DNA of 64,000 nucleotides from Ischnura elegans (taxonomy: Eukaryota; Arthropoda; Insecta; Odonata; Coenagrionidae). Below the pieces are notes generated by a model. It did not search any database. It had not been told where the DNA came from and saw nothing but the letters and a program-made list of their open reading frames with translations. Location of the stretch: positions 95,590,566 to 95,654,565 of the forward strand of contig NC_060251.1 of the NCBI RefSeq assembly GCF_921293095.1, written 5' to 3'. Made by a program: the position numbers and the translations under genes. Below are positions 16,367-56,967 of this stretch, piece after piece (position 1 is the stretch's first letter; the number at the start of each line of letters is the position of its first letter).

Positions 16367-16629
16367 GTCGTGGGAACGAAATCTCCAAATAAGAAACCCA
16401 ACAAAAACAACGCCGGGGCTACACAAACCAAACGCGGGAACTCTCAGTCCCCCGGCCCCTCTGATAAGGCTCCAAAGAGCCAAACCAATTTAATGTAGTT
16501 GGAATACCTATCCGATACGGATATTTTAAAAATTGAGAGCAAAGGGAAGAAGAGTCACGGCAAGCGCCTCAAGCGCCCTTCGTGACTCAACTGCTCCTTT
16601 TAGTTTTAATCCTCTTTCATATTTTAATC

Positions 16630-24477: not shown

Positions 24478-24554
24478 ATTTAGCATCAATTTTAAGCCAG
24501 TTTTTCCTCAGCAAGTGTCACTACAGAAATGGTAACCAGTTTTCCTCTTATATA

Positions 24555-29243: not shown

Positions 29244-32200
29244 TTAGACTTTATTAAAAATGTTTATTTCTCTGAGAAACCGAAATGTACAGATTAAGTT
29301 GGTAGGGTGGTCTCCTAAAAGGGTTTTTAGGTCTCCCCCTAGATTATTTCGTCTTCGCGCTTCGCGGTACTTAACACAATCTAGCATGATGTGTCTAATA
29401 CTTAATGGACATTTACAATCCCCACATTGGGGAGGTTCCTTCTCTTCAGTAAAGAGATACGCATGGGTCAGGGGGCTATGCCCTATCCTCAATCGTGTAA
29501 GTACTACTTCCTCTCTCCGATTACTACGAGCTGAGGAGGGCCACGCTGCTACCATGTCCTTGATGCCACGGAGCTTGTTATTATTTAGAATCCTCCATGA
29601 CTCCCTCCATTTTCCAAATACCACGTTTCTTAGAGATGCTCGTAAGTCCTCGTGGGGAACCAGCGTTGAGACAAGAACTTCGTTATTCAGAGCTTCCTTG
29701 GCCATAGCGTCTGCTATCTCATTCCCGGCTATCCCCTCATGTCCCGGTACCCACAGAAAATGGATATTCAAACCCTTTCTCGAAAGGGTCAGCAGGAGAG
29801 AGTGTATTTCTTGCACGATCGGGTGCACGGGTGAGAAGCCAGAGATGACTTGTAGCGAGCTCCTGGAGTCAGTGCATATGACAAAGGAGCCGCCTTGGTC
29901 ACCTAGGGCTTCTAGAGCTGTCCTTATGGCATAAAGCTCCGCCGTGTACACACTGCACATCGGGTGAAGCTTTGCTCTGATGTTCCCGTGGATAGGGGAG
30001 AACACTGCACATGCACAAGCAGAGTTATCTTTCGAACCGTCAGTGTAAACGGGGGTAAGGTTGGGGTGATTCCATCGGAACATGGCAAACAAACGCTGGT
30101 ACTCCGAGGGAGTTGTGGAAGACTTCGGTCGAGATCGTGAAAGAATATTCACCACCGGAGTGGGAGTGATCCAAGGGGGGTGTTCCGAGAATGAAACAGG
30201 ATACACTTCAGGTAGCGTGAATTCGCATCCGCGAATAAAATCGTTAAAACGAACGCTTACTGGTCTGGTTGCTTTAGTCCTTCGGTTAAAAACATTAATA
30301 AAACGGGGTTTAAAAAGTAAACTATAACATGGGTGACTCGTCATTGCTAAAATTTTGGAAACGTAGCTACAAAGAAGCCAGGTCCTTCGGTAGCATAGAG
30401 GAGGCTCGCCTGCGTCGGTATATATGCTGGGAATCGGGCTGGTCCTAAACGCCCCAGTGCATAGTCGCAGACCTGCGTAGTGCACTGAATTAAGTGCTTT
30501 CAAATACGTCTCGCGAGCGGACGCATACACGAATGAGCCGTAGTCTAATTTCGACCGCACCAGTGTGCGGTAAAGTAAAATTAAGGTGGTGCGGTCTGCT
30601 CCCCAAGATGCGTGGCTTAAAAACTTTAAAATGTTCAAAGACTTCAAACAGTTTACCTTGACAGAATTAATGTGCTCCTTCCAGTTGAGTTTGTGGTCGA
30701 GGGTCATCCCCAGAAAACGGACTGATTCCACAAATGGGAGGTTTCTACCACCTAGATGTAACGTGGGATTTACATGGACGCCCCGAGTGCGTGAAAAGTG
30801 AACGCACTTTGTTTTCTCCAAAGAGAAAAGGAAGCCGTTATTTTGGGTCCATTTGTGAAGTTTATTGATGGTGAGTTGCGCCATACGCGATGCATTCACG
30901 ACCCTAGATGATCTGCAGAAAATCGCGAGATCATCCACAAACAGTGACCCTAACACTGGCTCCTTGATGCAGTGAGCTGTCGTTGATCGCAATAGCGAAC
31001 AACGTCACGCTCAGAACGGAGCCTTGGGGAACTCCGTTGTCAAGAGGGTAAAAATTTGACAACAACTGTCCCGTCCTTACTTTAAAAACACGGTTGGTTA
31101 AAAATTTTTGTATAAAAATGGGCAAACAGCCTCTAAAACCCCACTCGCGTAATACGCGTAGAATCTTACGTCGCCAGACCCGGTCGTAAGCCTTCTCTAA
31201 GTCGAAGAATACACCGACTACGTGTTGGCGGAGAAGGAAGGCTTCTTGGATGAAATTTTCAATTCTAACCAAGTGGTCCATTGTGGAACGGTTCCGTCTG
31301 AATCCGCATTGTATCCTAGAGAGGAGTTTTCGACGCTCCAGCCACCAAATGAGACGTCGATTTACCATTCGCTCCATTAACTTGCACAGGCAGCTGGTGA
31401 GAGAAATCGGCCGGTAAGAATTCGGATCAGCTCGGTCTTTTCCATGTTTTGGGATGGGAACAATGACGGACTCCCGCCAGGACGGAGGAAAATCCCTATT
31501 GGCCCAGAGCTGATTAAAAGTTTCAAGGATTTCCAGCAACGCCGATTCCGATAGATTTCGGAGGAAGGCATTGTGGATCTCGCCGGGTCCTGGGGACGTG
31601 TCGTGGGAGTCATGGATGGCAGATTTCAGCTCCCAAATGGTAAATGGCATATTGTAGTCTGCCGTTGTGTTAGGCTCCATAAAGGATATAGGGACGTTCT
31701 CGAGCCTTTTCTTGAGGATCGCAAAAGAAGGTTCATAGCATTCGTCGCTGCTCACTTTGGCGAGTAATTGGGCGAATACGTTCCCTATCGCAGCTGGAGA
31801 AGTGATAACCTTTCCTTCGACTTCTAGGAAGGATATACCTAGATGCTGGCTGCTACCCGATATGCTCCTCACCTTACGCCATACCTGTGCAAGTGGAGTC
31901 CTGTGGTTGACACCGGAGACAAAATTCATCCAAGAAATCCTCTTTGCGTCCTTTATTACCTGACGCGCTTTCGCTCTTAGTCGCCGAAAAGCGGAGAGAT
32001 TATTTGCTGTAGGATACTTGTTGAAAATTCGGGTGCACCCTCCGGCAGGTAAACGTTGCACACCGTTATCGCCTCGGGAGCGTGCACCGTCACCGCTACC
32101 GCTTGGAACGGTGTGTTAAGATTTATTCGGGAGGTGTAAAGAGACTCCCGGACAAAAACCGAAACTCCACCATGGGCTCGTTGGCCGCTGGTATCGTCCA

Positions 32201-33602: not shown

Positions 33603-34223
33603 GGACTCAAAACAGAAATTCATCCCCTGGGCTCCCCACCCACCACGGAGCCACACATTTGGGACGCCACCCGCAAGCCGGAATGGACGTCAGGGCTACC
33701 CAAGGGATATAGGAACCTTTGATAGGGGATCTCTTTTGGGTTAGAACCTCCAGCGCGGGGGCCCTCCGAACCCACGCACCTTCGGCCGCCCTACGGAGAC
33801 CCCCATATCTCCAGCACTAACCCGTCCTGGCGTACGCTCGGAAGGAGCCGCCAAGCTCCCCAGCCGCCAGGAGCCGATTGACCGAGCTGGGCTCTTCTCG
33901 GCCGCCCGTTTTTCGGGGAATCCAGGGCCGAAGTGGGGTTTTGAACTCCGGCCCATACCGGGTTTCCGACGCCCAGCTGGGTGCCGGAGAACTCACCCAC
34001 CAGGATCCCCTTCTCCCCCTTGTACGGGTCTCCACGCACGGCAAACACGTGGGTGAATCTGGACGCCAGATGTTTCGGCTACTCAGCACAGCAGTCACAT
34101 GCTGTCTGGACGCTATCCTAGCGTACGAAGGGTTTTTTGACGAGGTTGTCTCCCCGATGGGCTCGGGTCCGTGGGGGCGCGACTCCCCAAAGGAAGAGAT
34201 TACTCTCTTCCCCCCGTGCGGGG
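33603..34223 (-). promoter_or_regulatory. I-element 5'UTR with internal promoter
   Basis: GC-rich leader of about 620 bp shared by copies A and C and the fragment at 48407-48565. Because I-clade elements transcribe from an internal promoter at their 5' end, the promoter should lie here (family knowledge). One 16-bp VNTR unit only. Confidence 0.6.
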
Positions 34224-34235
34224 GCTTGCGGTTTT

Positions 34236-35425
34236 GACGAACTGGTTGCTCTGATCGTTCAACAAAGTGAACTTTATATGAAACAAAAGGGGGTATCTTT
34301 TCATACCACTGCCGAAGAGATTAGCGCGTTTCTGGGGATGAATTTCGTGATGGGGTATCATGTGGTTCCGAGTTTTAGGGACTACTGGTCCTCTGATCCT
34401 GACATGCAAGTGCCGTACATTGCCAATATAATGTCCAGGAGGCGTTTTGAAGTCATTAGGAATGCTTTGCATTTAGCAAATAATGAGGATATGCTTCCCA
34501 GAAATCACCCCAATTATGATCGAGCTTTCAAAGTTCGGCCTCTGATTAAACATTTCAATCAATGCTTCCAGAACGCGCGGAAACCATCTAAACAGCAGTC
34601 TATAGATGAGCATATGATACGCTTCAAAGGTCACAACATCATGAAGCAGTATATTAAAAGTAAACCTATAAAGTGGGGTTTTAAGATTTGGTGCAGATGT
34701 GATTCAAATTCTGGCTATTTGTATCAATTTGACTTGTATACAGGAAAAAAACTGACCCAGAGTATGGTCTTGGAGAGGGAGTTGTAACGTTGCTGAGTAA
34801 ATCCCTTGAGTACTTGTGCTGCGAAATATATATTGACAATTTCTTCAACTCACCATTGCTTCAGTTGAGATTACTTGAAAAAAATATATACCTATGTGGC
34901 ACGGCTCGAAGTGACAGAAAACATATGCCAAAAAACCTCAAGCCAGATAAAGAATTAAAACGTGGAGAAAGCCACATGCTATCAGCAAATGGTGTCACTT
35001 GCGTGAAATGGATGGACAACAGATCAGTAATAATGTTGTCAAATTTCATTAATTCAAATAAGTCGAGCACTGTCTCCAGGAGACAACAAAAAATTGCAGA
35101 AAAGATACAAATTCCTTGTCCGGAGATAATAATAGCATATAACAAGTTCATGGGTGGGGTCGATCTAATGGATCAAAAAATTACGTATGAAATTGACAGG
35201 AAAGCAAAAATTAAGTTCTACATGAGAATATTTTTCGATCTATTGGACATTGCAGTGAATAACGCACATTGTTTATACACGCAACTTAATGAGGGCGCAA
35301 ATCCTGATTATAAGGCAATTTCGCCTCTTCAATACAGACAAATCATTGCGAGGTTCCTCATAGGAAACTATTCTAATAGAAAGAGAGGTGTCCCGACTGG
35401 CCCTGTTACTCTCTTTTTGAGTTAA
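34236..35425 (+). pseudogene. piggyBac transposase 2, C-terminal part
   Basis: Continues the frame of 28631-29113. Contains FLGMNFVMGYHVVPS and MSRRRFEVI (piggyBac core start), then QSIDEHMIRFKG with the first catalytic Asp. In the A7 run at 34744-34750 the frame shifts, after which TDPEYGLGEGVV, IYIDNFFNS (second Asp) and NKFMGGVDLMDQ (third and fourth Asp) follow. Ends GPVTLFLS. A one-base change in the A-run would be either a real mutation or a sequencing error. Confidence 0.85.
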
Positions 35426-36592: not shown

Positions 36593-36811
36593 CTTATTCC
36601 TTAAATATTCAACCAGTTTTTTGACTAGCTGCAAATATTCAGTAAATCCACATATTTGCTAAAATGTTGCCATTTTTTACTCCTTGGAAATAAAAAAAAT
36701 AGCTTGGATTTTTCCACAATGTTACATTCTCTTAATGCATAACCTACATAATAACAACTTCGGTGAAAATTAGACAACTATTCATATGTGACTTCCAACT
36801 ATTCATGCTTT

Positions 36812-36858
36812 CCCATACAAAAATATCTGTGCTGTGACTGCACTAAATCTGCACTGTA
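36812..36858 (+). repeat. Left terminal inverted repeat of the EnSpm-like element
   Basis: 47 bp beginning CCCATACAAAAATATCTGTG; pairs with 46385-46431 with one mismatch at position 13. Confidence 0.9.
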
Positions 36859-37350
36859 ACTGGACTAAACTCTGTGTTTAGCACAGTCACAGTACACTTT
36901 TCTGTACTGGACTGTACTATGGCAGCTAGAATTTGAGAAGAACTGTACTGTAACAGTGCTGAATCACTGTGCTGGAACTGTGCTAGAGCTCAGACTGCAC
37001 TGAGACTGGGCTGGGTAACATGACTGGAACTGTACTATGGCTCTAACTGTACTCTGACAGGGCTAGATAACATGACTGGAACTGTACTGTGGCTCAAAGT
37101 GGACTGTGACTGGGCTGGGTAACATGACTGGAAGTGTACTATGGCTCAAACAGCACTGTGACAGGGCTGGGTTACATGACTAGAACTGCACTTTGACTCA
37201 AAATGCACTCTGACTGGGCTGGGTAACATGTCTGGAACTGTACTATAGCTCGAACTGGAATGTAACTGGGCTACATAACATGACTGGAACTGTGTTATAG
37301 TTCAAATTTCATTATGATAGGGCTGGCTAAAATGACAATAGAACTATACT
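36859..37350. repeat. Left subterminal tandem repeats
   Basis: About eight degenerate units of 50-60 bp with the core GGAACTGTACTATGGCTC and GGGCTGGGTAACATGACT. Subterminal arrays of this kind are transposase or accessory-protein binding sites in CACTA elements (family knowledge; binding here is inferred). Confidence 0.8.
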
Positions 37351-37660
37351 ATGGCTCATGGAAGTTTAATCTGGAAGAATTGGATTTAGATTAGAAGATA
37401 TGCTGGTGATATCGGAAGGCTATGGAATACTCACATTTAAAAACTTTGGAATCTTGGAATTAGGTAGCTGTCTTCGGTACACCCTACAACAAGTTATAGA
37501 AAAAGACTGGTGGTAGTTTGATTTTTCAACAATTTATTAATAAAAAATACTCTTCAACAAAATGTCATGATTGAATACAAATAACATTGAAATGGAACAA
37601 AAATGCAAAGCATATCAGATAACTCAAACCTCTTCCATGTAATGCAACTCCGACATGTTA

Positions 37661-40600
37661 TTACTCCTTTTCAATTGAATTAACTCGTTTAACAGAATAC
37701 AATTTGCTTTCGACATTTACTAATACATGCACCTCCACAATGTCATTCACAATTACACTTGTTGTCTCACTAGATAAAAGTATTTCGTTTATAAGGTCAT
37801 TCACAGGCAAATTGCTTACATTTTTAACAATGCATTCTCTTACCACAGCATAATAACAACTCTCACAAAGACATAATGTGGAGCAGAAACACTTTTTACA
37901 TTTCACAAAAGTTTCTACCAAGTATAAAGAATTATCTTTTGTCAAGATCAAGGATGGAGAGCATCTTTTCCCACTTACGCTACTTCTACTTACAATAATA
38001 TTATTTCCCTTTTGCAGTCGGCCAAACACCCAAACTTTTGGAATTGGGGAAATGGGACAATCCAAAAGACTTTCAATAACATTCATTAAGAATGTTGATA
38101 CAGTGGAAACCTGCCGTATGTTTCCCAAAGCATAAGTCTCTCCATCAATTTCTTCCATTTTCACTTCGTGGGAAGATAAATGTGCCACACATTTCTTGCC
38201 TAAAGAGATGTCTCCCAACTTTGATTTATACGAAGGCAAATTCTGGATGGCATGAAATGATTCTATTATCTTATATTCTGCATGTTGAGTACCACTCACA
38301 AACTTTTTCATCGTACCCAATAACCCCTCTAAAGGGAAACATGAAGTTTCAAATGCAGGGCCCAAATCCTTGACGTTTTCTGCTAAGTGTAGCAATGAAT
38401 GTAAATTTGCAGTCATAAATTGCGGTCCATAATGAATTTCATACTGCTTTACAAAATTTACTAAATGTGTATGAGCAGTATTGATATCATCCAGAGAAAC
38501 AGAGTGTTTGTGTAACATGAATGTAGCTTGAACTAGCTGATAAAGATGATTTAAAAGAGTAGAGGGTAAGATATCACACAAAACAGGGATTGCCCAATAG
38601 AGTAAAAAGTGTTTATATTCAGACGTTTTATAAAATGACAAATGCATTTTGATGGACCTTGGAGAACGAAAGATGAAAATTGGTGGAATTATCTTTGACA
38701 GCCGTGAATCAATCTTATGAATATAATTGTGCAATGAAAATGAACACTTTTTGTGTTTCGCATCAAACCAAAGATGCATCAGTGCCTTAAAAACACCTCC
38801 AAACACAGAATGCATTGTATCAATGCCAATGCCTCTAATGAAATCAGGACAGATCTTTGAAATCACATTTATCCCTTTAAATCCGTACACAGGTTTCTGA
38901 GTAACTTCCGCTTCCTCGCAGTGCTTTATAGATAGTGCATGTGAGCGTAATGTGAGATGATCTGAGTATTTATAAACAAATGTTTTCTTTTTGCCTGCAA
39001 CAGTTATTTTTTCTCCTTTAACTAGGCATTTGGGGCACCCAAAGAAGCCATTAAAATTCTTCAAATTTAGAAGAAGAGCCTTGGCTGGGAGGTCGGCAAT
39101 GCCAGCTAATATGAATGACTTAACAGCTGTTTTATTACCACAGGGCAAAACCAATTCAATGCCGTGATGGAGTTGAGAAAATATTTTATGAATCGGTGAC
39201 ATGTAAGTCCCAAAATTTGGTTTCTGCTGACTGTACCAAAGCCCAGCAAAAATTACGTTTTGGGGCAAGAAGCATAAGTTGTATGGGAGCTCATTGATGA
39301 GAAGCAAGATGGGCCAGAAAGATGATTTTGAAGATTTGTACATTTGAATCCCATCGGTGTACAGCATGACAGTGAAGTCGTAAACACCAGTGAGCAAATG
39401 CTTGAATTGCCTGTAGAGAGCTCCATCACACACATTTTCCAAATTAGTTGATGTTTTCGGATTTTTATGGTAATTGTGTGTGATGGCAGCAACAAAATCA
39501 TGTCTTCTAAACATATTCCTTATCTGAGACTCGACAGGACATATAATGAAATTCAAAGATTTTGAATTTGAACAAGAACATTCACGTATTGGTGAGATTT
39601 CTTTGCCACAATTATTACAAAATCTTCCCATTCTAGGGTCAAAATCTCCTGAGTTGAAAAATCTTTTCAATAAATACATACTTTTAATTACTTTGTTGTG
39701 CTCAGGAAGATGGTAAATCAAAAGATCAATAACTTTAGACATGCACGCATAAGAAATTTTGAAATGTAGGAAGACGGACATCAACATGACAGCACTCTCA
39801 AAAACAGTGATGTTTGAACCCTCATAAATTTTCTCACTACCTTCATTTTTTGGTCCTTCAAAATTACCTCCAATATTGCTTTCTGAAGAGCTATCGGATA
39901 AGATGTTATACGAGTCTTCGGAAGACGTGTCATAGCTTGACTCATACACAAACGAGGATTCTTCACCATCACTCACAGATTCCTGACCATCACTCACAGA
40001 TTCCTGACCATCACTCACAGATTCCTCACCATCACTCTCAATTCCATCCCTCAGGACTGTTTTCTTCAAAGTAACACCTATGAATTGAAATATAATAAAC
40101 CATGTACTCCGTCCATGATCCATATGTAATGCAGATGATAAATATATTCTATAACCAAATAAGTAAATGGGATATGTAAGAATGTGGTTCATGGGTTATC
40201 CGGTAAATAATAATAATTATGTGCTAATAGATAATGATATACCTACCACAATTATAACTTTCACCTTGGTCAGCCACAATTGTAGTCGTCACATCTGATA
40301 GTGGGTCAGGGCCTATAGGAAGATATAAATATATATCATCAATATGAATAGTTTTGAGACATTTTATATGTGACGTTATGCAGAATGATATAACCTCCCT
40401 GGCAAAAATTTCTGCGTTATCATTTTTGGCAGTAGGGTTATGAGAAAGCGCTCTTTATAGCACAGAAAGATCACCTGAAATTCACAATTTTAAACATTCC
40501 GTAACTGCACATATAGTATGAAATGTTTCTCTCTGATTTCGGAGAACCTTCGCACCAGTTGCAAGTAGATATTTTTGCCAGGGAGCTGAGAAAAAAGTAA

Positions 40601-40874
40601 TTGGAAATTTTTCCGGTTTTAGCAGAACATTGTAAACACTGAACTTCCAAGTAGTAAATGTAGCGTGAAAGTACTTACCAAGATTATTATTTAAATTGAA
40701 GAAGTCCATTTCCAGAGTAGAATCGTCACTATCAGAGCAGTCAATACATTCCTCAGAAACCGAAGCAAGCTCTTCTACTTGTACGAGAGCACTGTTCTGA
40801 TTGCCACCATAGTCAGCTTTCCTCCGCCTCCATTCAGTTGTCCGAGAGCTTTTGGTGTAAGGTCCTCTCCGCAC
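37661..40874 (-). CDS. EnSpm/CACTA-like transposase (Tnp2 type)
   Basis: Three exons on the minus strand: 40874-40679, 40312-40247 and 40077-37661, with phase-1 GT-AG junctions that join correctly. The main exon is open for about 805 codons to the stop at 37661. Features: an acidic run with three 7-residue SDGQESV-type repeats (39960-40050); a zinc-binding CNNCGKE...CSC motif; LYTDGIQMYKSS (catalytic Asp region); DLPAKALLLN and FNGFFGCPKC; GIDTMHSVFGGV; CFPLEGLLGTMKKFVSGTQ; and a Cys-rich C-terminal motif (CKKC, CLCESC). This is the animal Tnp2-like EnSpm transposase pattern, expected to cut at the element ends. The first exon has an in-frame stop upstream and no clear ATG, so the true start (perhaps the Met near 40709 or another exon) is unresolved. 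Confidence 0.8.
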
Positions 40875-41271
40875 TATTACTCAAAGAGGGTATCTATGAG
40901 ATAAATAAGGTATCTACGCTTTCAGAAAGGGCCGCTTCAATTCACGTTTCAAATCTTCACCACCCGCTCTTTGACCACTCATGACGACAGAAGTTATTTA
41001 CTTTTTTACTTCGCATTACAATCAATGATCTCCGCATAAAAATTAATGCATAAAATTATTTAAAAATTTTATTGACATGAATGCGGAAATTTATCACCAT
41101 AGCTTGCTTAATGTTATTTTTGTAAAGTAAGGTCAATAAAACAACTTCCGTTAATACTCCGCCATCTTTGATGCGCAACGTGGTCTTCGCACCAGCACTG
41201 ATCGTATCAGTAGTACATGTGCCCTCGTCGGACTAGGTTACCTCTACGGCTTTGTCGACGATCAGGCAAAT
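40875..41271. promoter_or_regulatory. Divergent promoter region between transposase and BEN gene
   Basis: About 400 bp between two head-to-head genes. An arthropod-type initiator (ATCAGTAG, 41205-41212) lies about 65 bp before the BEN ATG. No TATA box seen. The shared region would allow co-regulation of both genes. Confidence 0.45.
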
Positions 41272-44200
41272 ATGCATAGCTTGAATGAATCCGACGACTC
41301 GCAGTGCAGCATCTCCTCGCGGAGTGCGCGAGAGGTGAAGCAACGGGCGTGCGTTTATTTTTATTCTGATCAAAATACCGTAATTTGCAAAGACATTCGC
41401 CAATTTACGAAAACTGACCCCGAATGGGGTGAAGAACTGATGATAGCCTGGGATGGTGTCCAGGAGAGAGTACGCATCGTGGCTGCTGGAGGTAAGTACT
41501 CTGAAACTTCGTTTTTTAATGTTTTTTTAACTGTTAACTGAAACATTTTTTTATTGTTAACTTGCGGTCGCTTTACACGTGGCGCCAATTAGTACATTCC
41601 GTTGAAATTAAATACTCCTGAAGAATAGTATGCTTGATGGATAGGGATTGGGATTTCCTACCGACGCGCGATCACAGATATATAAATTGTATATATCAGC
41701 GCGCGATCATGTCATTTTGCTATCGTTCTCACCGTTGGAAACTTTCCACGAGATGCCATGTGATGCGTTACTTGTTAAGTGGTTCATTTCTTTATTGGTG
41801 ATGCCTATTGCAGGTCGATATTAATTATTTCCCTAGAGTTTATTGGTATCGTATTTTTATTATTTCCGGTCGCTTTACACGTGGCGCCAATTAGTACATT
41901 CCGTTGAAATTAAATACTCCTGAAGAATAGTATGCTTGATGGATAGGGATTGGGATTTCCTTCCGACGCGCGATCACAGATATATAAATTGTATATATAT
42001 GCGCGCGATCATGTCATTTTGCTATCGTTCTCACCGTTGGAAACTTTCCACGAGATGCCATGTGATGCGTTACTTATTAAGCGGTTCATTTCGTTATTGG
42101 TGATGCCTATTGCAGGTCGATATTAATTATTTTCCTTGAGGTTATTGGTATCGTATTTTTATTATTTCCGGTCGCTTTACACGTGTCGCCAATTTGTACA
42201 TTCCGTGGAATTTAAATATTCCTGATTTATAGAATGCCCGATGGAAAGGGATTGTGCTTTTTTTGCCGTCGCGAAATCATGTAACTCTGCTACCGTTCTC
42301 ACTGTAGGAAACTTTCCAGGAGACTATTTCCCTGCGTGTGCTTAAATACTGTGCAAGTCAGTGTCCCTCTTGAAAAGCCTTTAAAATATTTAAAGTGCCT
42401 TGATGAAGCTGTTTTTTATGTCTCTATTAGGTGATCGGTAGCGCTAGAAGGTCAAGGCCCCTCTGAAGTGCCTTTTCTATTTAGGCGAATGCTTATTAAG
42501 GTCCGCTTCTGAGGTCTTGATAAATGCTTTTATTTGTATAATATGCAACATTACATTTTCTTGTTGTAGGTAAGGACCAGGACATGAAAGAGGCGCAGGA
42601 GGAATTCGAGCATCTGATGGGGAAGGAAAATATGTCGCCATGCAAGGCCATCATGGTTTTGCATGGTGAGCGTCCTGCTCCAAGCAGGAGGAGGAGATGC
42701 CCAAAGATGGGCAGTAATGTCACCAATCTGGCTCCCATTCGTTTTGGGGAAGATTTGCCCCCTCTAGCCGATGCTATTGGGAATGCCCTACGGGTTCAAG
42801 GGGACGTCGATTGGTTCAATTCCGAGGCTATTGGGCCAAGAGTGCCAGAGCCAATTGGGTCAAGTGTGCCAGAGCCTGTTTCGATACAGCGCAATATTAA
42901 TTATAGTTCAGCCAACATTGAAGGTAGACCATCAATTGATGCACTGTTGGCTAACGCTGGTAAGTTCTTCATGATTTCATGTTATTTTTAACTAGAATAG
43001 TCATGGATAACTGATCACAATATAATATCCTGATTGTTTCCATTGGTTTTTAATAGATTCTTATTTCATTTCTAGCTGATGATTGTGAAAAAGGGCGCAT
43101 TCTGCTGCAACATGCACGGCATTTCTTGAAGAAAGGCCCTTCAGAGCTGACAGTAAGTCTTCTTGGTGTAGTACCTTTATATATATGTTCCAGTATCCTG
43201 TCACTGCATTCTATAAGCTAACATGTTATTTTCAGGTTTTATTGCATCCTTCGTACAACATTTATATGCAGAAAACGGATAAGATATCTGCTGTTACCAT
43301 AGGGACGACACCGAAGAAGCTGCAGGAGCAGCTTTTATTAAAATTGTTTGGGAGGGAGTACATAGGAGGACATTCTGCCAGCGGCCAAAGGAGAGGGAGA
43401 GGTGGGAACCCCGCTGCAGATGTGGAGACGATGGAGGCCGTCGATGGTAATTACTGATGTCGCATGGGAGGAATCAATATTCTTATTCTTCCCTTGGAAT
43501 GATAGGGCATGTTAAATATCCATGGAATGTTGAGTAAAGGCTGTTTTACATGATGCACGGAATTGCGCTATCTGATGTACATGCGAAGGCACAGTAAAAA
43601 TTGCATCGTGTACAGCGGTGAATTGCTAGAACACTTGTGTGGACGCTAGACTGCGAAATAGCCCATTTTCTAATTTCGTTCATGCATTCCTGCAATGCCA
43701 CGCCATTTTAGAAATTAATACAGCTCTAACCTGCGCAATTCCGTGCACCATGTAAAACAGCCTTAAGACTTTCAACAGTCCTTGAACTCTTGTGGAACCA
43801 CAATAGTCAATATTATATGTACACATTTTTATGTCAAGTTTGATGATGATAATAATAATGTCTGTGTTACGAAAGAGCTGTTCACTATGAAAAACACATT
43901 TAACAATACTGCTTGTTTTCCCAGCATCTAGTGTAGGTTTTTCTTTTATTTTGATTACCCTACTGTGAAATGGCGGTGTATTATTTGCAGCAAGCCCTTT
44001 GCAAATTGCATACTTTGTGATCATTTCAATTTATTTTAACATTACTTACTGCAACTTATGCAAATGTTGTTCCGGCTGTTGCAATAGCATTTCTTTTTTA
44101 TCTCAACATTTATCTTGTTCTTATGTAGTGTAGCTTATGTGAGTGAGTATTCACTGCTTAAAATTTGAACAGATGAAGATTGCTTTAAATCTTTCTTGGT

Positions 44201-45391
44201 TACAAATGTTTTCTATCTCATTTATATTTCAATGGAAGTAGGTACCTAGTTTGTATTATTGTTATATTTATTTATTTTTTATGAATGCGACATAGCGCAG
44301 CATTTTTATGAATGTGCAATGTAAATTTGTTATAGTAACTATCCCCAATTTCTCAGAAAAATCCATTTCAAATTAATTTCAGCACAACATTTTCATCTCT
44401 TCTCATAGAAAGCAATATGTCTGCCTACTCTGTAACTACTCATAGAGAACTAAAATCGGGCTTCATTTCGGGAGTGATATAGCACACATATTCTTAGATT
44501 ATCATTACTTTGATTTCAGCATATGTGAAGATGAAGTTCAAAGGCCAGGAGGTTCCACGGCTTTCAACAACATATAATAAACTGGCAAAGAATGTGAGGG
44601 TATCCAAGGGTTACCAGGCCGGGAAATACCATTATGTGAAGAGGTAAATATCATTTTAAATTGGTTGATGTAGAACAGGAGCCCAATGGCATATACTGGA
44701 AATATTTCTGAAAAGTCTCTGAAGAGCTTGCATTGCAAGTACTTCGCCCATAAAATGCAAAATGTCCACAAAGAAAATTATTCGTCAACATCGAAGTGAA
44801 ACAAGAATATTCCTTTGTAGAAGTGGCTAGAGTACCTAATTTTGGTTTGGGGGTCATATCACAGTCCAAGCAAACTAATTTCCCCCTTTGGAATTTTCTT
44901 AACTTTCCACCGCCACATAACCTCTAGTTTCTTGTCTTAGCCCTGATATGATCATCTCCACATGAATTCACTTTCATACAATTTTGATGAACTTAATTGG
45001 AGCCCTTTGGGAACTATTCAACCTTTCATTTGAAATGTTTCTAACTTACTAAAGTATGTGCTTGAAACAAACTACAAGTTCAGAGGTTAAAAAGATGTTT
45101 GTAAAATATGAAAATTTTTCTGGGTACTTGTCATTTTTTGGTAGCTGTAACCTGACATTTTTTTAACTTATCAATGTATTTCGGTCCATCATTGACATTC
45201 TGTCATTTAAGGAATAAATTCACCTTAACTAATGGCTCATGACTGCAATGTTATAACCAGTATTGCTATAGGGTTTAACTTTAAGGCAAACAGCACAGCT
45301 AATCCTTAAAAATTCCAGTTTTGCCTTTGAACTTTACATGTTCAAACAATTTAATGTCTATATTCTATGTAATTTCAGGAAGGCAGCCTAA
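41272..45391 (+). CDS. BEN-domain protein, six exons, 344 residues
   Basis: Exons 41272-41491, 42570-42959, 43076-43152, 43236-43446, 44520-44643 and 45379-45391. Every intron has GT-AG ends and the phases (1,1,0,1,2) join without a break to a TAA, giving 1035 nt. The N-terminal exon has an acidic/Ser start and a small domain (VYFYSDQNTVICKDI, EELMIAWDGVQE) typical ahead of BEN domains in arthropod proteins. Exon 2 is a basic, Pro-rich linker (SRRRRCPKMG). Exons 4-5 hold the BEN domain at about residues 229-325: TPKKLQEQLLLKLFGREYIG, GHSASGQ, METMEAV-like spacer, YVKMKFKGQEV. BEN domains bind DNA and proteins in chromatin factors. Here the gene lies inside the EnSpm-like transposon opposite the transposase, suggesting an accessory DNA-binding role. 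Confidence 0.75.
41566..42330. repeat. 302-bp tandem repeat in intron 1 of the BEN gene
   Basis: Two nearly identical units (41566-41867, 41868-42169) and a diverged partial third. Each starts GGTCGCTTTACACGTG and contains an imperfect palindrome GCGCGATCA...TATATAAATTGTATATAT...GCGCGATCA. Confidence 0.9.
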
Positions 45392-46190
45392 GAGGCAAGT
45401 GGAGCATCTTCATGAAGATTGAGTTGGAAGAAATACGTCAGTCATCATATCAATGACTGGCCTCAATTTTCTAAGAGGGTTATTGATAGCTAGATTTTCA
45501 TTGTTTGCAAAATGTTTTCTTACTAATTTTCAAAAATCTTCTTCGAGGCATGATTGTTCTAAAATATGGTGTATTCATGCTTGGATCTTTACACCAATAA
45601 TCTTGTAAAGTTGGCTTTTCAATTAAACCCATCACAATAACTAGAGCTAAATACACCAGTACGCTTGTGGATGTGAATGTGTTAAAGAATTGTATTTGTA
45701 TGTAATAAATTTCTTTTGTATCCATATCTTACTGTCATTTATTTTGCTCCTCAGTTACAATTTAAGCTTCAGCAGCATGAAGTACGAACGGCTCCTTTCA
45801 ATGAATTCTATTCTATAAGCAATCTACCATTTGTGGGGAAATTCAACAAAAGCAATTTTGTAAATTTAGGTGCATTTTAGTGTCTGTTGATGCACAGAAA
45901 AAGATTTTCTCACAGCTATAAATCTTTTGAGTGCCAATTTTTTCTTAATAAGGAATACAGTTTACCTTTTCTTTGACAAGTCTAAAACTGGTCATTTCAG
46001 TATGATATATCTTGATCTGTTCCATTATCAACATGGATCAGTGAATCAGGATCTTTGCAAATTTGCCTCTCCAGATTTAATTGTTTTGTCTGCTTCGTTA
46101 AAATATATACTGGGAATTCAATAGCCTTTTCTGGGCTATCAATTATTGTTTCAAGGAAAGAGTATTACAGTGAATCAACTGGCTGTACTG
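45392..46190. other. 3' region of the BEN gene within the transposon
   Basis: No gene recognised. The 45498-45725 minus frame has LQDYWCKDPSMNTPYFRTIMPRRRFLKI, which resembles a short piece of a piggyBac core (compare YWSSDPDMQVPYIANIMSRRRFEVI in gene 2), so a small piggyBac relic is likely at about 45520-45640. Confidence 0.5.
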
Positions 46191-46192
46191 TG

Positions 46193-46320
46193 GACACTGC
46201 ACTCTGACTGTGCTAGGGCAACTGCACTCTGACTGTGCTAGGGCAACTGCACTCTGACTGTGCTAGGGCAACTGCACTCTGACTGTGCTAGGGCAACTGC
46301 ACTCTGACCGTGCTATAACT
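46193..46320. repeat. Right subterminal tandem repeats (25 bp x 5)
   Basis: Five units of AACTGCACTCTGACTGTGCT + AGGGC. They differ in length and sequence from the left subterminal units but share CTGTGCT words. Confidence 0.85.
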
Positions 46321-46384
46321 GTACTGCGATGTTTCAATTCAAGTGCAGTTTCAGTAGAGTTACAGTACAGCCCTTTTAGCACAG

Positions 46385-46431
46385 TACAGTGCAGATTTAG
46401 TGCAGTCACAGCACAGATTTTTTTGTATGGG
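46385..46431 (-). repeat. Right terminal inverted repeat of the EnSpm-like element
   Basis: Reverse complement of 36812-36858 with one mismatch, ending TTTTGTATGGG. Confidence 0.9.
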
Positions 46432-46925
46432 TTAGGGTAGATACCAACTTCCTCATGCACATTGTTATCAGGCACATAAGCTTCCTATATTACGTCGTAG
46501 TACTTTGTAAGTTGCTCATTAGCTACTTCGGTATGATATTGGCAGTCTATGACTTCCAAAAATTCCTATCTACATATTGTGAAGTTAGATATAATGGGTG
46601 TGAATTGGTACTCCATATCTCGTTTAATCTCAAGGAATAGTAATTTATAGCATTTGTGAAGTACATATTAATATGACAACCATTTTCAAGAGATTCCATA
46701 CCCTGATATTTTTATGATACTTTGGTGTCCTAAAGTCACTTTTATATTTTATTCCATAATCTTACATTCTCTTAATGCATTGCCTACATTATAACAACTT
46801 GGCTGAAAATTAGACATGCCTATTCATACGTGACTACCAACTATTCATGCTTTAGGGTAGATATGAACTGCCTTAGATTTTTATGATACTTTGTTGTCCT
46901 ACAGTATTTATTTCTTCCATTTTCA
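46432..46925. repeat. Flanking tandem duplication holding an empty-site paralogue
   Basis: The about 100 bp left of the EnSpm element (36711-36811) recur at 46755-46852, where they run straight into AGGGTAGATA, the sequence that follows the element's right end at 46434. A second shared piece (TTTTTATGATACTTTG) occurs at about 46712 and 46878. The element therefore inserted into one unit of an older local duplication. Confidence 0.75.
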
Positions 46926-48406
46926 GATGGCAACATTGAGTATGCAGGAAATATGTTGAGTTTCCAGGACCTAGTAGACATTTCTGGATCTCTTTCAGTA
47001 CCATCTCCATGGACACAAATACACATTGCACATGAGAAAGTCCTTCTATTTTGCCACTTTTCTATGACTGTTGATGCAAACAGTCAGAAGAAGCCATCTG
47101 TGAATAAACTTGTATGGGTTGATGAAAGTTTGATCCTGAATTGCACAATTTCCAACATTATCCTCGACATTAGAAGACTTGGCATGACCTCTAATACTCT
47201 AAAGAGCATTAAGGAACTACAAGGCATTTTAAGAAAGATTGACCAGACATCAGCTTGCGTCGGATATGGACAAAGTGGAGAGAGAAGTGCTAAATGCCTT
47301 CTTTTGTTGGAAGAGGGTGTTGTGTGCCAAATGTGCACTGTAGAAAAGAAATCTTTGGACAGGAAAAGGCAAAGAATTAGTAAATGTAGATCATTAAAGC
47401 GGCTTCATTTTCCCAATAATTCCGACCTTAGCGGGAAAGTCAACATTCTAAAAAGGCGGTACAAGAGTTCCTTGAAGAAGAATCAGAGGACAGTCACAGC
47501 AATGTCAACATTGAAAGAACAGCTAATTAAAGCTCAAGAGGACATTGCAAACACCCTTGAGAACTGAATTGAAGAGCAACTACAAGGTAAAAAAATACCT
47601 GCCAATTTGAAGGCATCCTTTCTGCAGATAGTTGAGTCTGCTAAGGTAAATGACCGGAGAGGAATACGCTACAGTGAAAATTGGATTTTACTTTGTATGC
47701 TCTTGCATATGCGTTCGCCATGCGCTTACAATTTTCTGCGGAATAATAACATTCTCCCATTGCCATGTGTGAGAACTATCCGTAGGTGAGTGTTACATTC
47801 AAATGGATATTTTTATTTTTCTTTTCACAGTCATTGTCTCATTTTTATACTTTTGCTTTCCAGGTACCTCTCCCTTATTGAAACCAGATGTGGATTTGAT
47901 GCTTCTTTTTTTCAATTACTTGAAAATTTTTTAAAAATAAGGGAGGAGCATGAGCGTCATGGCTTAATATTGATTGATGAAATGGCCATTCGTGAATGCG
48001 TCAGTGTCAATTCAGAAACCCTTACATATGAGGGACTTATAGATTTTGGAGAAGATGGGCCTGAAGCTAAGCACTTTGCTGATAAAGCAAATCACGGCCT
48101 TGTGTTTATGTTCCAGCCTCTAGCTGGGAATTTCACGCAGCCTATTGCTGTATTTGCATCTCGTGAGCCAACAGGGGGGACTGTGTTGGCTCAGTAAATT
48201 GTGAAGGCCATCACTTGGCTGGAAAAGATTGGAGCAAAGATACATGGAGTTGTGGCAAACGGTGCTTCAACAAATTAAAAAATGTTGGTCTGAGTTGGGA
48301 GTTTATGGAAAGAGAAGCTCCCTGAAGAACTCGTTTAGCCATCCCTCAGAGGAAGGGCGTAAAGTTTTTGTTTTTTTGCGACACTCCCCATGTGTTCAAA
48401 AATATA
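46926..48406 (+). pseudogene. P-element-like transposase gene 2 (partial)
   Basis: Acceptor TTTTCAG precedes 46926. One frame runs to about 47785 with a single in-frame TGA at 47565-47567. It contains VDANSQKKPSVNKLVWVDE, a Lys-rich coiled region, and CAYNFLRNNNILPLPCVRTIRR. Then a donor GTGAGT and acceptor CCAG (about 47786-47863) lead to YLSLIETRCGFD, LILIDEMAIRE (DDE-like region of P-type transposases), FMFQPLAGNFTQPIAVFASR and a stop at 48195. Beyond are frameshifted remains ending DTPHVFKNIR at about 48406, where an I-element fragment begins. The THAP exon and the C-terminal third are missing. Confidence 0.75.
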
Positions 48407-48565
48407 AGATGTTACGGCTACTCAGAACAGCAGAGTCACATGATGTCTGGACACTATCCGAGCGAGCGACGGGGTTTTTTAACGAGCTTGTCTCTTCGGT
48501 GGGCTCGGGTCCGTGGGGGCGCGGCTCCCCAAAGGAAGGGATTACTCTCTTCCCCCTATGCGGGG
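48407..48565 (-). mobile_element. Orphan 5'-end fragment of the I-clade element
   Basis: 159 bp matching only the first part of the 5'UTR of copies A and C (5' terminus CCCCGCA at 48565). The 3' side breaks off at AGATGTTACGG. No 3' end, no tail and no clear TSD. It abuts the truncation of P-like gene 2. Confidence 0.85.
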
Positions 48566-49254
48566 CATTCAAGGTGGTGTCATTTGCATATGTCATTCTC
48601 TGTTGTATACTGTTTCATAATGTCATAATTTGTTGGCTATTGAGAGGCATTGCCTATGAAGAAATCCCAATGTCATGAAAGATAAATCTGCTGCCATGTA
48701 TACCCATAAAATTTCTTTTTCTTATAACGAAGACATTGCATGATACCTCTTTGGAGGATGAGACTTCCATTGTACAATCATCTACCCATTTCCATGAAAT
48801 CCATGAATACAGTGCCTTACTATAAAACCAAAAGCTCTTCTATGAGAAAACGTCTAGTAAAGTTGCAATGAGATTGCCTATGGCAGATCCTTTTAAGTTA
48901 ACCAATTTTAATGGATCACTGATAAATAATATTTGTAGAGCAGTGCAATGGTTACTTTTTTGTGGTGCTGTCCATTTATGTGTTCTCTTACTTCCTGACA
49001 TGCCATATATAGTGTGCAAACGTTGTGCCTAGATACACTCGGCCAATGATGTACATTGAAAAAATACGTTAAAAATTGTGTCTTCATGTCTACTTAATTG
49101 ATTTGTGATGAGCTTCAGTATTCAACTACCTATTACTTATTTTTAACTTAGTGAAGGATTCAAAGCCTATATTTCAAGTACACAGATTATGATTTAAAGA
49201 TAGATGTCTCGGACTTCTTTATTTGAACTTATATTTTTTTTCTCTTCATTTCAG
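48566..49254. other. AT-rich spacer, no gene recognised
   Basis: Lies between two P-like pseudogenes; probably intron or flank of one of them. Nothing coding recognised. Confidence 0.5.
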
Positions 49255-51337
49255 ACGTTTTTCTTGTTTATGTGCATGAGAAGCAACGTCAAGACAATAT
49301 TGTTGAACCAGTCCAGGAGGATTTAGATGTGAGCACATCAGCATTGGTGGAGACGATGGTCTCATCAGTTGAGTCTCAAACTCCACCCAGTCTCTCATTC
49401 CCATCTCCTCGAAAAGCTGTGCTGAGGAGGAAAGTGAAATCACTACAGGCATCAGCTGCCAGATTGAAGAAGAAACTGGACTTAGAGGAGAGGAGTACAA
49501 AAGTTGATCTTAACTCATTTCCATTAATGTGTGATTTACTTTTGCCTCCTGAAATAGCCTCATTTGTTAAAATCCAGGCTGATCTTTATAAGAGGAAAAA
49601 AACAAGGGTACAGGTATTCAAATGCTGTAAAGCAGCTTGCCCTTCAGGTGTATTTTTCCAGTACATCAGCATATACTGTTCTGCAACAGACCTTTATGTT
49701 GCCATCATTGAGGTCTTTGAGACGCTACACCGAGGGTTTTAATTATAGGCCAGGACTTAATGATTCTTTATTTGCTGCATTGAAGTGTAAATCTGATACT
49801 TTGTCTCACCTCTCCAAGTTTTGTGGCCTAAGCATTGATGAGATGTCTCTGAAAAGTAACCTCTTCAATGACATTAACAATGATGATATTATTGGTTTTG
49901 AAGATGACGGAGAGAACAAAGCAGTGTCTCCTCAAAAAAATGCTCTAGTGGTAATGGCAAGAGGGATTTATAGTCATTGGAAGCAGCCTATTGCTTATTT
50001 TTTTGTTGTCTCATCTTGCAAAGCCGAAGCCCTTTATGAAATACTTGTGAAGTGCATTGAGGCTTTATTTAACATAGGATTAAATGTGGTGAGCATCACC
50101 TCAGACATGGGCTCCAATTTTGTTATGTCCATGGGCTAAGTAAAATTCTAGGAATTACTCGTGAGAAGCCCTTTTTTCCTTTCAATGGAAGTGACATAGT
50201 GTATATTTTTGACCCTACCCATCTGTTGAAATCACTGCGAAATAATCTGATCAAGTATGATTTCCATTTTTATGACAAAGTAGCTTCTTGGTCTGACATC
50301 AGGGCTTTGTACAACCAAGACAAGAATGTGAATCTAAGGCTGATACCTAGAATCTCTGATTCTCAAATGATTCAACAAAATAACTTTCAGAAAATGAAAG
50401 TCAAATTTGCTAGTAAGGTACTAAGCTTCACAGTAGCTAGTGCTATTGATACCTACATAGCCCTGGGGAGGTTACCCAAAACAGCTTGTGGTACGTCATC
50501 CTTTTTGCCAGACATCGACAAAATGTTTGATATTTTAAACTCCTATAGGAGAGAACATGCGAAAATGTATAACAGGGCATGGATGGGAGCTCCTTTCCAG
50601 TTACAATTTATAGAGCGCATGAGGACAAATTTTGACAACATGAAAGTTTTCAATGTTGATGGGCATGAAATTTCTAGAACATTGAAGTTCATTTAAGGTT
50701 TCCAGATCACCATTTCATCACTTCTCCATCTCATCACTTCTCCATCTCTGGAGATAGTTAAAAATATATGGTTCCTCCTTCCTGTTAAGAAGGCTGAATC
50801 AGGACTGCCTTGAAAATTATTTTGGGTCTGTGAGGCGAGTTGGAGGAAATTCCATTAATCCTACTCCAGTGCAGTTCACAAGAGCATTCAAGAAATTGTT
50901 TGTCCTCCGATACCTGCACAGTCGTGGCACAGGAAACTGCGAAGTAGTTCCGGAAAAAGTTTTGACATTGCTGAATGAAAGAGTGACTCATGTCGATGTA
51001 GCAGAGGATAAAAAGGATTTTCTAGTTGCAGAACCTCTCCTTATTCAAAATGAAATGCACAAGGTGGATCTGCCATTCACCAATGCAGTAAAATATGTCA
51101 GCGGCTATCTTGCAAAGTGCTACTTAGGTAGGCACTCCTGCAGTAACCGCAGAAGTTATTTAAATAGGAATGGGCAAAATGTTGACATGACATCAATATT
51201 TTGCTGAAATAAGGCCAATAAATCCAACGGGAGAACCATCTATGGTGGACTCCTTATGCCTGATAATGGATTTGTGAAATTCGTTGAGAATATGGAGAAG
51301 GTATTTGTAAAAAGATTAGAGCAACTAGCATTAACGA
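49255..51337 (+). pseudogene. P-element-like transposase gene 3 (partial)
   Basis: Acceptor TTTCAG precedes 49255. The first frame holds a coiled coil (KAVLRRKVKSLQASAARLKKK) and shifts in an A7 run at 49599-49605. The second frame reads YSNAVKQLALQVYFSSTSAY, LPSLRSLRRYT, CGLSIDEMSLK (DDE region), WKQPIAYFF and SDMGSNF, then shifts at about 50140. Next come IYIFDPTHLLKSLRNNL-type and MGAPFQLQF motifs to a stop at 50694. After a damaged stretch, LRRLNQDCLENYFGSVRR and NPTPVQFTRAFKKLF follow (50789-51207). The order is that of THAP9/P transposases. A Penelope-like element truncates it near 51338. Its sequence differs clearly from genes 1 and 2. Confidence 0.8.
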
Positions 51338-55350: not shown

Positions 55351-56967
55351 ATGCCTAGCCAGCCACCGGTGACTCCTGAGGTGATGTGGATCATGGACAA
55401 GGCGAGACAACAGTGCCAACTGGCAATTACTGCACCATCATCTGCAGCTGCCTCCACCACAACGCTGATTGGTCCTCTTCCATGCCAACTGGCCAACTCA
55501 CCAGTCCTGCCGGACGAGCAAGCAGCGCCTGCTGCCGCCCCTGATGCATCCCCTGGCCTTCCTGATGCTGGGACAACCACTACGGCAACGCCGGTCACCA
55601 CTCCCCAGATGCCGCCATCGCCAGCTGCCGCAGCAGCCGCAAAATACGCCAGGCAGGCAGCCAATGATCCAAGACGGGCCAAAGCCATCTCTTCGGCGGT
55701 GAGTACTGCCCCCCCTATTGCACAATCAATGCCGCATGACACTACGCAAACCGCGCATGACCAAGGGGACGACGGCTTCACTGTCGTCCAAGGGAAAAAT
55801 GCCGCTAGAAAGCGAAACCGAGTAGATCCGGTTGCTCCCGTCCCCACGGCCAATTCATTTGAAGTGTTAAATTCCAATAATGTTGTTGAGTCCCCAATTG
55901 GGACTACTGAGCAAACTAGGTCCCCTAAGATGCCTAACATCACTGTGTACGGAGTCTCTGAGTGGGTCCCGTTGTATGCTGAACTGGAGGCAAAACTGGT
56001 GGTGCCGCCAAGGTGCTCTTTGAGGGGCCCTAACACGGTGGTCATCTCTACGTCATCCCCGCGGGACTACCACGAGGCCAGGAACGTGCTGACGGGAAGG
56101 AAGCTGGAATTTCACTCTTACCAAGCTGCAGAGGACAAGCTGACCGAGTACTGTTTCCGTGACATCCAGCGGAACACCCCGGCTGAAGCAGTGAAGGAGG
56201 CCTTGGAGAAAAAAGGCTTTCTCCCGAAGTCAGTTGTCCAACTGACAACCACAAGGCCCACTCAGAGAGACAGAGAACTAGGACATAACTCGGTCGCGAA
56301 GCGCCTCACGCCCGTGTACCACGTAATCTTTACTAAAGAATCTACCAAAATCAATTTAGATCAACCTTTTTATTTGCTTGGCATGCGCGTCAAGGTCACT
56401 CACTATCAAAAGCCTAAAGGTATTTTACAGTGCCACAAGTGCCAGGGTTTCGGGCATTCTAAAAATTACTGCAATATTCGGCCACGTTGTGTTAAGTGCG
56501 CCGGGTCGCATGAAACAGCCGAATGTTTGAGAGTTGACCGCTCCACACCACCGAAGTGTGTTAATTGCGGAGGTGACCATACTGCCAATTACCGCGGTTG
56601 CAAGGCGTTTAAGTTTGCGCAACAGCAGAAATTGGCTCGCGATAAAGCCCAAGGATCAGCCCAAGGGAAATCTTTTACTCCTGCTCCTGCTCCTTCCTTC
56701 AATGCTTGGTCACGAGGTCCCGCAACGGACCAAAGTGGCTTTCCTTCTCTAACCCAGCCTCGCCCAAGACCTACTCCCACTGTACCTCAGCCGACATCCG
56801 CCGGCACTCAATCTTGCCCGACCCAGCAACCCGAAAATACTTCCTCCGACAACCTTTTCACCTTCTTCTTGACCATCAGTTCTGAATTGAGTCTCCTTAA
56901 GACAACCAATGAGAAGAAATTGTTTCTTCTCCGGCAGATGTGCGCGCTGCTCGAGAATGACAATTAA
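55351..56967 (+). CDS. Jockey ORF1 (Gag-like)
   Basis: 538 residues from an ATG at 55351. The first about 180 residues are Ala/Pro-rich and low complexity. A PRE_C2HC-type domain follows (about residues 210-355; YHEARNVLTGRKLEFHSY, GMRVKVTHYQKPKGI), then three zinc knuckles from about residue 361 (CHKCQGFGHSKNYC, CVKCAGSHETAEC, CVNCGGDHTANYRGC). It should bind element RNA in a nucleoprotein particle. The stop overlaps the ORF2 start by 11 nt (ATGACAATTAA). Confidence 0.92.
   Translation: MPSQPPVTPEVMWIMDKARQQCQLAITAPSSAAASTTTLIGPLPCQLANSPVLPDEQAAPAAAPDASPGLPDAGTTTTATPVTTPQMPPSPAAAAAAKYARQAANDPRRAKAISSAVSTAPPIAQSMPHDTTQTAHDQGDDGFTVVQGKNAARKRNRVDPVAPVPTANSFEVLNSNNVVESPIGTTEQTRSPKMPNITVYGVSEWVPLYAELEAKLVVPPRCSLRGPNTVVISTSSPRDYHEARNVLTGRKLEFHSYQAAEDKLTEYCFRDIQRNTPAEAVKEALEKKGFLPKSVVQLTTTRPTQRDRELGHNSVAKRLTPVYHVIFTKESTKINLDQPFYLLGMRVKVTHYQKPKGILQCHKCQGFGHSKNYCNIRPRCVKCAGSHETAECLRVDRSTPPKCVNCGGDHTANYRGCKAFKFAQQQKLARDKAQGSAQGKSFTPAPAPSFNAWSRGPATDQSGFPSLTQPRPRPTPTVPQPTSAGTQSCPTQQPENTSSDNLFTFFLTISSELSLLKTTNEKKLFLLRQMCALLENDN

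Follow-up and report, generated by a model that had tools for sequence, protein, structure and literature searches.

The window we analysed, a 64-kb stretch of Ischnura elegans DNA to whose positions all coordinates refer, holds a complete class II transposon of 9620 bp. Within it, two divergent genes encode a Tnp2-type transposase and a BEN-like protein, and arrays of short repeats lie towards both ends. The features are as follows:

36812-46431, no strand: whole transposon, delimited by inverted termini and an empty site, with the TT duplication at 36810-36811 and 46432-46433
36812-36858, plus strand: left terminal inverted repeat, starting with CCC (47-mer match)
36827-36867, plus strand: two exact copies of a 19-bp module, one within the left terminus, the other spanning its inner edge
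36972-37358, plus strand: left subterminal array, 7.4 copies of a 52-bp unit with ACTGYRCT-like half-sites
37661-40709, minus strand: transposase gene, exons 40709-40679, 40312-40247 and 40077-37661; 837 aa
40710-40874, minus strand: putative former N-terminal coding stretch of the transposase, in frame and upstream of the annotated start
40875-41271, no strand: spacer between the divergent genes, with no ACTGYRCT-like site at up to one mismatch (searched over 40873-41271)
41272-45391, plus strand: BEN-like gene, six exons, 344 aa; BEN-like region from exons 4-5
46196-46315, plus strand: right subterminal array, 4.8 copies of a 25-bp unit, one 19-bp module per unit
46385-46431, minus strand: right terminal inverted repeat (47-mer match)
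46749-46873, plus strand: unoccupied paralogous target site, lying outside the element (repeat comparison)

Boundaries and genes of the element

An earlier, sequence-only reading of this DNA had called 47-bp inverted termini around two divergent multi-exon genes, and both calls hold. The termini pair at 46 of 47 positions (98% complementary), and the 47-mer, searched with up to three mismatches, has exactly two matches in the window and none in 100 shuffles, which rules out a chance inverted repeat as their source. Both ends begin with CCC (CCCATACAAAAA...; terminus string CCCATACAAAAAWATCTGTG). The flanks read ...ATTCATGCTTT before the element and TTAGGGTAGATA... after it, while the unoccupied paralogous target site reads ...ATTCATGCTTTAGGGTAGATA...; compared with the empty site, the occupied one carries two extra T, a 2-bp TT target duplication. 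Comparison with this paralogous empty copy, which lies close by, fixes both boundaries. The element was probably mobile until recently. Its terminus (with one W position) has no exact match in viral_contigs, a collection that is little informative for an insect element, and the window contains neither a tRNA nor an Rfam match at the gathering cut-off.

The three-exon transposase is letter-for-letter identical to P0004, the product of LOC124161213 of I. elegans. Its main open reading frame (37661-40195) scores above the Pfam cut-offs for both Transposase_21 (35.4 bits against 28.6) and DUF1258 (PF06869; 42.8 bits against 33.1). In P0004 numbering, the catalytic and the CxxC/HxxxH positions are D274, D361, C380xxC383, H592xxxH596 and E616; D274, D361, C380 and C383 are invariant and H592, H596 and E616 nearly so in an alignment of 13 of the 15 protein-search matches, some rows of which are fragmentary. 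The protein thus shows the arrangement given for CMC/CMCT transposases in the available text of PMC12730594, a DDE triad in which CxxC and H(3-4)H lie between the second D and the E. The in-frame stretch at 40710-40874 is probably a former N-terminal coding part, and the GTG at 40874-40872 stands opposite the first Met of the relative P0006 (comparison by eye); with GTG at its likely old start, this copy may be impaired.

The BEN-like gene has exons at 41272-41491, 42570-42959, 43076-43152, 43236-43446, 44520-44643 and 45379-45391. As had been proposed, the six exons join in phase, with GT-AG at all five introns and a single uninterrupted frame from the ATG at 41272 to a stop codon ending at 45391.

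A shared module at the ends

The termini and both subterminal arrays have in common a 19-bp module made of two half-sites 11 bp apart. The arrays had earlier been placed at 36859-37350 and 46193-46320; repeats are indeed present at both ends, but the 52-bp array starts at 36972 and the modules already at 36827. The two arrays have the same orientation, and half-sites in the left one are spaced mostly 11, 17, 24, 28 or 35 bp apart. With up to three mismatches, all 24 matches to the module in the window fall in the element's ends, with none in its 8.8-kb interior or in the 54 kb outside; 10 random controls gave 0-3 matches per 64 kb. The pattern was derived from these very repeats, and the count measures sharing and confinement, not an independent discovery. 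Exact ACTGYRCT half-sites behave similarly (26 of 30 in the ends, none in the interior, four outside), and single half-sites with one mismatch also occur away from the ends (25 in the interior and 115 outside).

This restriction suits recognition of the ends better than control of the promoters, although it does not tell which protein does the reading. It bears on the view that the BEN-like gene is integral to the element but serves counter-silencing or promoter control, with chromatin or the element's own transcription as its target, the transposase alone reading the module. BEN domains are described in chromatin-silencing and repression factors (PMC9579193 and PMC4574769, in the parts available), and the accessible text of PMC12730594 reports putative counter-silencing genes, of the TET/JBP type, on fungal transposons including EnSpm. 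The spacer between the two genes, however, lacks any copy of the end half-site, and we regard this view as unlikely.

The second protein and its family

The second protein had been named a BEN-domain protein outright. BEN (PF10523) is the only Pfam match of its C-terminal region (E 0.0049, 17.5 bits) and the top match of the family consensus (E 0.00097, 19.7 bits, with DUF2880 second at E 0.1), but neither score reaches the gathering cut-off of 23.2 bits. BEN is likewise the sole or top match for two of the four annotated relatives described below, P0001 and P0019; scanned whole, two of the four give no BEN match. An NCBIfam scan of P0002 and of the transposase P0004 returned nothing. On these profile matches, the second protein is likely a BEN protein.

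It is decidedly unlikely, to our mind, that it is instead an unrelated DNA-binding protein resembling BEN, a view in which the element would still be a two-gene member of the CACTA group and which is compatible with the other readings. Beyond the sub-threshold scores, that view can appeal to structure prediction, which gave no confirmation of the BEN fold: AlphaFold models of P0002 and P0019, built on alignments of four sequences, are poor (mean pLDDT 35 and 43), and among 10 Foldseek matches of the P0019 model none has an E-value up to 0.001. Against it stands the consistency with which BEN comes out as sole or top match for the window region, the two relatives and the consensus. Other weak matches were set aside, namely Rpb5 (E 0.048) and PWWP (E 0.17) at the N-terminus and CagA_N (E 0.36). 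PDB sequence matches were taken as chance, both in one search (a repressor of competence/RNA chaperone, best E 0.24, and the lipoprotein OutS) and in a second (kinesin KIF18A, best E 0.096, solute-binding proteins and the same chaperone).

Elsewhere in I. elegans, four loci hold relatives of the BEN-like protein (P0001, P0002, P0003 and P0019); across the five loci, window included, identity falls to 48%. Three of the four relative gene models match splice sites of the window gene: the exon 4 acceptor in P0019, the exon 4 donor in P0001 and P0003, and the exon 6 acceptor in P0001. These common sites indicate that the family spread at the DNA level together with its introns, and rule out a retrocopied second gene. 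Two protein searches of limited sensitivity against a database of 5.8 billion proteins, one of which scored only 8000 candidates, had no match from any other species with E up to 10.

P0002 matches the window protein at 50% over 98% of the query and the transposase relative P0005 matches the window transposase at 62% over 50% of the query; compared in this way, the two have diverged from the window's genes to similar depth. Both lie on the same 10,294,136-bp scaffold, which does not prove adjacency or pairing. The other two scaffolds with BEN-like relatives (21.3 and 18.8 Mb) carry none of the 15 transposase matches, and the 115.5-Mb scaffold with the transposase P0006 carries none of the BEN-like matches.

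The alternative kept by the sequence-only reading, a host BEN gene captured as passenger cargo by one element or sub-family and without a role in transposition, is highly doubtful, for although BEN genes belong to the normal gene set of animals (PMC4574769, available part), a multicopy family of some age with common splice sites disfavours a recent one-off capture, and both the intact frame of the window copy and the absence of any host-type orthologue from the two protein searches, whose sensitivity was limited, count against cargo.

Proposed mechanism and known systems

We lean towards a two-gene transposon of TRC type in which the BEN-like gene would be an integral part of the element family; its protein most likely recognises the 19-bp module and would assist transposition as TNPA does. 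The DDE transposase would cut and join at the CCC termini, leaving the 2-bp duplication. The BEN-like protein would occupy the modules in termini and arrays, their half-sites about one helical turn apart, and, so bound, would help to bring the two ends together and to attract the transposase, perhaps with a regulatory role as well, like TNPA in En/Spm.

Transposition of maize En/Spm requires two element proteins (PMC2613891, available text), and the accessible parts of PMC1636069 and PMC4298943 describe no dedicated end-binding partner for animal CACTA-group elements. A BEN-like second gene together with a common end module offers a concrete, testable two-component animal system. It may also connect transposons with a class of animal chromatin factors. 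The parts available of PMC4574769, PMC9579193 and PMC5704228, the last naming BEN in a reference only, describe no eukaryotic DNA transposon that carries a BEN gene. PMC10781644, as far as available, treats I. elegans transposons and the morph locus and has no bearing on the element. More tentatively, and as a possibility we would not call probable, animal CACTA-group transposons may have independently recruited a BEN protein as an obligatory partner for binding the ends, a counterpart of plant TNPA that reads a one-turn-spaced double site in termini and subterminal arrays. Part of the BEN chromatin factors of animals could derive from transposon proteins of this kind or have a common origin with them.

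Of the earlier label EnSpm/CACTA-like, the Tnp2-type transposase and membership of the CACTA group stand, but En/Spm proper does not: CCC ends and a 2-bp duplication rule out a plain plant-type CACTA element, with its CACTA core and 3-bp duplication, while the plant habit of repeating one motif subterminally at both ends is present. Because it combines CCC ends and a 2-bp duplication, the defining TRC features (PMC1636069, available part), with a Transposase_21/DUF1258 transposase, we place the element by its sequence with the animal TRC elements. CCC termini and a 2-bp duplication are also found in SmTRC1 of Schistosoma, in elements of Tribolium and Aedes, and in Spongebob/EnSpm-4N1_HM of Hydra, and SmTRC1 also has a Transposase_21 transposase and a tandem-repeat region (PMC1636069 and PMC4298943, parts available). 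SmTRC1 reportedly produces alternatively spliced transcripts with different ORFs, and those parts mention no BEN-like gene; the present element has a divergently oriented second gene and an array towards each end. The match to PF06869 recalls Mirage, the family that PMC3985635, in its available text, identifies with PF06869 and places beside Transposase_21; the transposase here differs in scoring above the Transposase_21 cut-off too.

With En/Spm, Tam1 and Tgmt the element shares a Tnp2-type transposase, a multi-exon second protein and a motif reiterated asymmetrically at both ends (PMC2613891, available text). All three have CACTA ends, where ours are CCC, and Tgmt makes a 3-bp duplication (PMC2613891), where we find 2 bp. 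In En/Spm, a single alternatively spliced unit yields both TNPA and TNPD, in contrast to the two divergent genes here. The target duplication of En/Spm is likewise 3 bp. The second protein here has no Pfam match besides BEN at E up to 1, the weak matches set aside above apart. TNPA binds subterminal repeats and is needed together with TNPD, and TNP1 and others, with little similarity to TNPA, are thought to fill its role elsewhere (PMC2613891). A BEN-like fold (DBD1) also reads the inverted repeat in Tn3-family TnpA (PMC9579193, available part); there it lies inside a bacterial transposase, whereas here it would belong to a separate protein.

Boundaries of the element and its surroundings

Direct inspection of the region 36812-46431 confirmed the 47-bp inverted termini proposed by the sequence-only reading: the terminal inverted repeats are 47 nt long with one mismatch, and the 47-mer terminus (≤3 mismatches) matches only two places in the window, the element's two ends, with 0 matches in 100 shuffles. 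A host repeat of 103-106 bp, 88% identical and detected with BLAST, is an unoccupied relative of the target site. The joined flanks of the element align with 46749-46873 over ~125 bp, with two additional T in the occupied site at the insertion point, which fixes both element boundaries and a 2-bp TT target duplication. This duplication, seen against the empty site, is direct evidence of the element's transposition.

Mobile elements are very abundant in the window. ORFs adjoin the element's right flank (46887-50696). The insertion site, in both its occupied and its empty copy, is located immediately upstream of them, so another transposon may surround or adjoin the element. Two of these ORFs were scanned with Pfam: 50073-50696 encodes TNP-like_GBD, a domain of P-element type, at 59.5 bits, and Pfam matched nothing in 46887-47567.

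Other mobile sequences in the window
34122-34787: PiggyBac-type (DDE_Tnp_1_7) transposase ORF, 165 bits; its remaining part seems to be ORF 34733-35425 next to it
60756-62477: PiggyBac-type (DDE_Tnp_1_7) transposase ORF, 312 bits, 573 codons open
97-1470: 457-codon ORF, Baculo_F match of 60.9 bits, envelope-type protein, perhaps from an endogenous retroelement
16537-19482, 21193-24507, 29244-32115, 56891-59629: long ORFs resembling, by eye, non-LTR retrotransposon endonuclease/reverse transcriptase; two of the four are nearly identical in part

Within the first annotated transposase intron, a 187-bp inverted-repeat stretch (40397-40583) ends in CCCTGGCAAAAATWTCT. The pattern CCCNNNCAAAAAWWTCT occurs in the window only at both ends of this stretch and both ends of the element, against a chance expectation of 0.30 matches at ≤1 mismatch, and by this terminal likeness the stretch is likely to be a short non-autonomous relative lying within the element. 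A clean target duplication was not found around it; CT precedes and AG follows.

The transposase and the BEN-like second gene

40709-40679, 40312-40247, 40077-37661 (minus): exons of the transposase gene, spliced product 837 aa

The spliced transposase is identical to P0004 (annotated LOC124161213, Ischnura elegans, on a 126-Mb sequence), and on that ground the window is assigned to I. elegans. Its three exons and a Transposase_21 match above cut-off in ORF 37661-40195 (35.4 bits, cut-off 28.6) agree with the Tnp2-like, multi-exon gene first proposed; Pfam also reports DUF1258 (42.8 bits, cut-off 33.1) and, under its cut-off of 27, DUF4218 (25.3 bits). An alignment of 13 of the 15 search matches (P0004 to P0016; P0017 and P0018 excluded), from sources that include I. 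elegans, Branchiostoma, Lingula, a thrips and a mayfly, has D274, D361, C380 and C383 invariant and H592, H596 and E616 nearly so.

The relative P0006 begins with MPKITYKKSSRTTNWRR, and the in-frame window stretch upstream of the annotated start encodes VRRGPYTKSSRTTEWRR. Because the first-Met position of P0006 is GTG in the window (40874-40872, minus), with the annotated start 55 codons downstream, this copy may use the downstream start MDFFN. A 21-bp repeat (39957-40045, x 4.3) in the N-terminus encodes the acidic repeat SDGEESV/SDGQESV.

The six exons of the second gene join in phase, as claimed, in a single open frame of 344 aa with GT-AG at all five introns. Its BEN-domain identity held in part: PF10523 matches the full-length window protein (E 0.029), its C-terminal 115 aa (E 0.0049) and a family consensus made by hand (E 0.00097), as well as the relatives P0001 (E 0.25) and P0019 (E 0.16), but every match in the family falls under the 23.2-bit cut-off. 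P0002 and P0003 scanned whole gave no PF10523 match, and the C-terminal part of P0002 gave E 0.12. Structure prediction and fold search added nothing to the identification, and we term the protein BEN-like.

Relatives found in protein searches with the BEN-like protein (all I. elegans)
P0001: 93% identity over 53% of query
P0002: 50% identity over 98% of query
P0003: 48% identity over 86% of query
P0019: 63% identity over 34% of query

Neither of two protein searches, the second scoring the best 8000 candidates, returned a relative outside I. elegans. The window splice sites are reflected in three relatives' gene models: the C-terminus of P0001, DGRQPKRHVEHHHED, corresponds to what a direct exon 4-exon 6 junction encodes in the window, DGRQPKRQVEHLHED; P0003 continues unspliced across the donor of exon 4 (DGNY); and the start of P0019 lies in frame a short way 5' of the acceptor of exon 4 (FQVLLHP). 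These common sites argue that the second gene is a multi-locus, intron-bearing family of some age. P0002 and the transposase relative P0005 (62% identity over 50% of query) lie on the same 10,294,136-bp scaffold, a link at scaffold level that does not count as proof of pairing; the other two scaffolds with BEN relatives hold none of the 15 transposase matches.

Two introns of the gene hold further repeats. Intron 4 contains a nested inverted-repeat element (43538-43763; 32-nt arms, 97%, TAA on both sides) that resembles a MITE flanked by its 3-bp duplication, and intron 1 a 302-bp unit x 2.3 (41562-42254), copies 1 and 2 being 97% alike.

A module common to both ends, and known systems

Tandem arrays lie inside both termini, as the sequence-only reading had it (left, 52 bp x 7.4; right, 25 bp x 4.8). 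Arrays and termini have a common building block, the 19-bp module CTGBRCTSTRACTGBRCTR, composed of two ACTGYRCT-like half-sites spaced by 11 bp, about one helical turn. At ≤3 mismatches the 64-kb window holds 24 matches to it, of which some overlap: 14 at the left end, 10 at the right, and none in the element interior or outside the element. Ten first-order random sequences of window length gave 0-3 matches each; as the pattern derives from these same repeats, the count measures sharing and confinement and is not an independent discovery. Exact ACTGYRCT occurs 30 times (26 ends, 0 interior, 4 outside). With one mismatch the half-site numbers 26 + 3 on the two strands at the left end and 13 + 8 at the right, and confinement is lost (25 interior, 115 outside). 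Both arrays run mostly in one direction, so that the right array is reversed relative to its own terminus. A module common and confined to both ends implies that some protein reads it at multiple sites.

The EnSpm/CACTA-like assignment stands for the group and fails for the plant type. The element shares CCC termini and a 2-bp duplication with animal TRC elements of the CACTA group, of which these are described as marks (PMC1636069, PMC4298943), and its transposase shares the D-D-CxxC-HxxxH-E pattern described for the CACTA/Mirage/Chapaev/Transib group (PMC12730594); it lacks the CACTA core and 3-bp duplication of plant-type CACTA. The element belongs to a known kind and carries a second gene besides: among the matches listed in a limited literature search, we found no description of a BEN-like second gene in such an element.

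By analogy with two precedents, the most likely role of the BEN-like protein, in which we have moderate confidence, would be to bind the 19-bp module at the element's ends and, once bound, to help synapsis or regulation. The element's anatomy, its boundaries, the structures of both genes, the second-gene family and the end module are observed directly; the binding, the function and a constant pairing of the two genes are inferred. In Tn3 transposase, the inverted repeat is read by a BEN-like fold (PMC9579193). In En/Spm, where both TNPA and TNPD are required, TNPA fills the multi-site end-reading role; for elements that carry different motifs, proteins of little similarity such as TNP1 of Tam1 are thought to take its place (PMC2613891).
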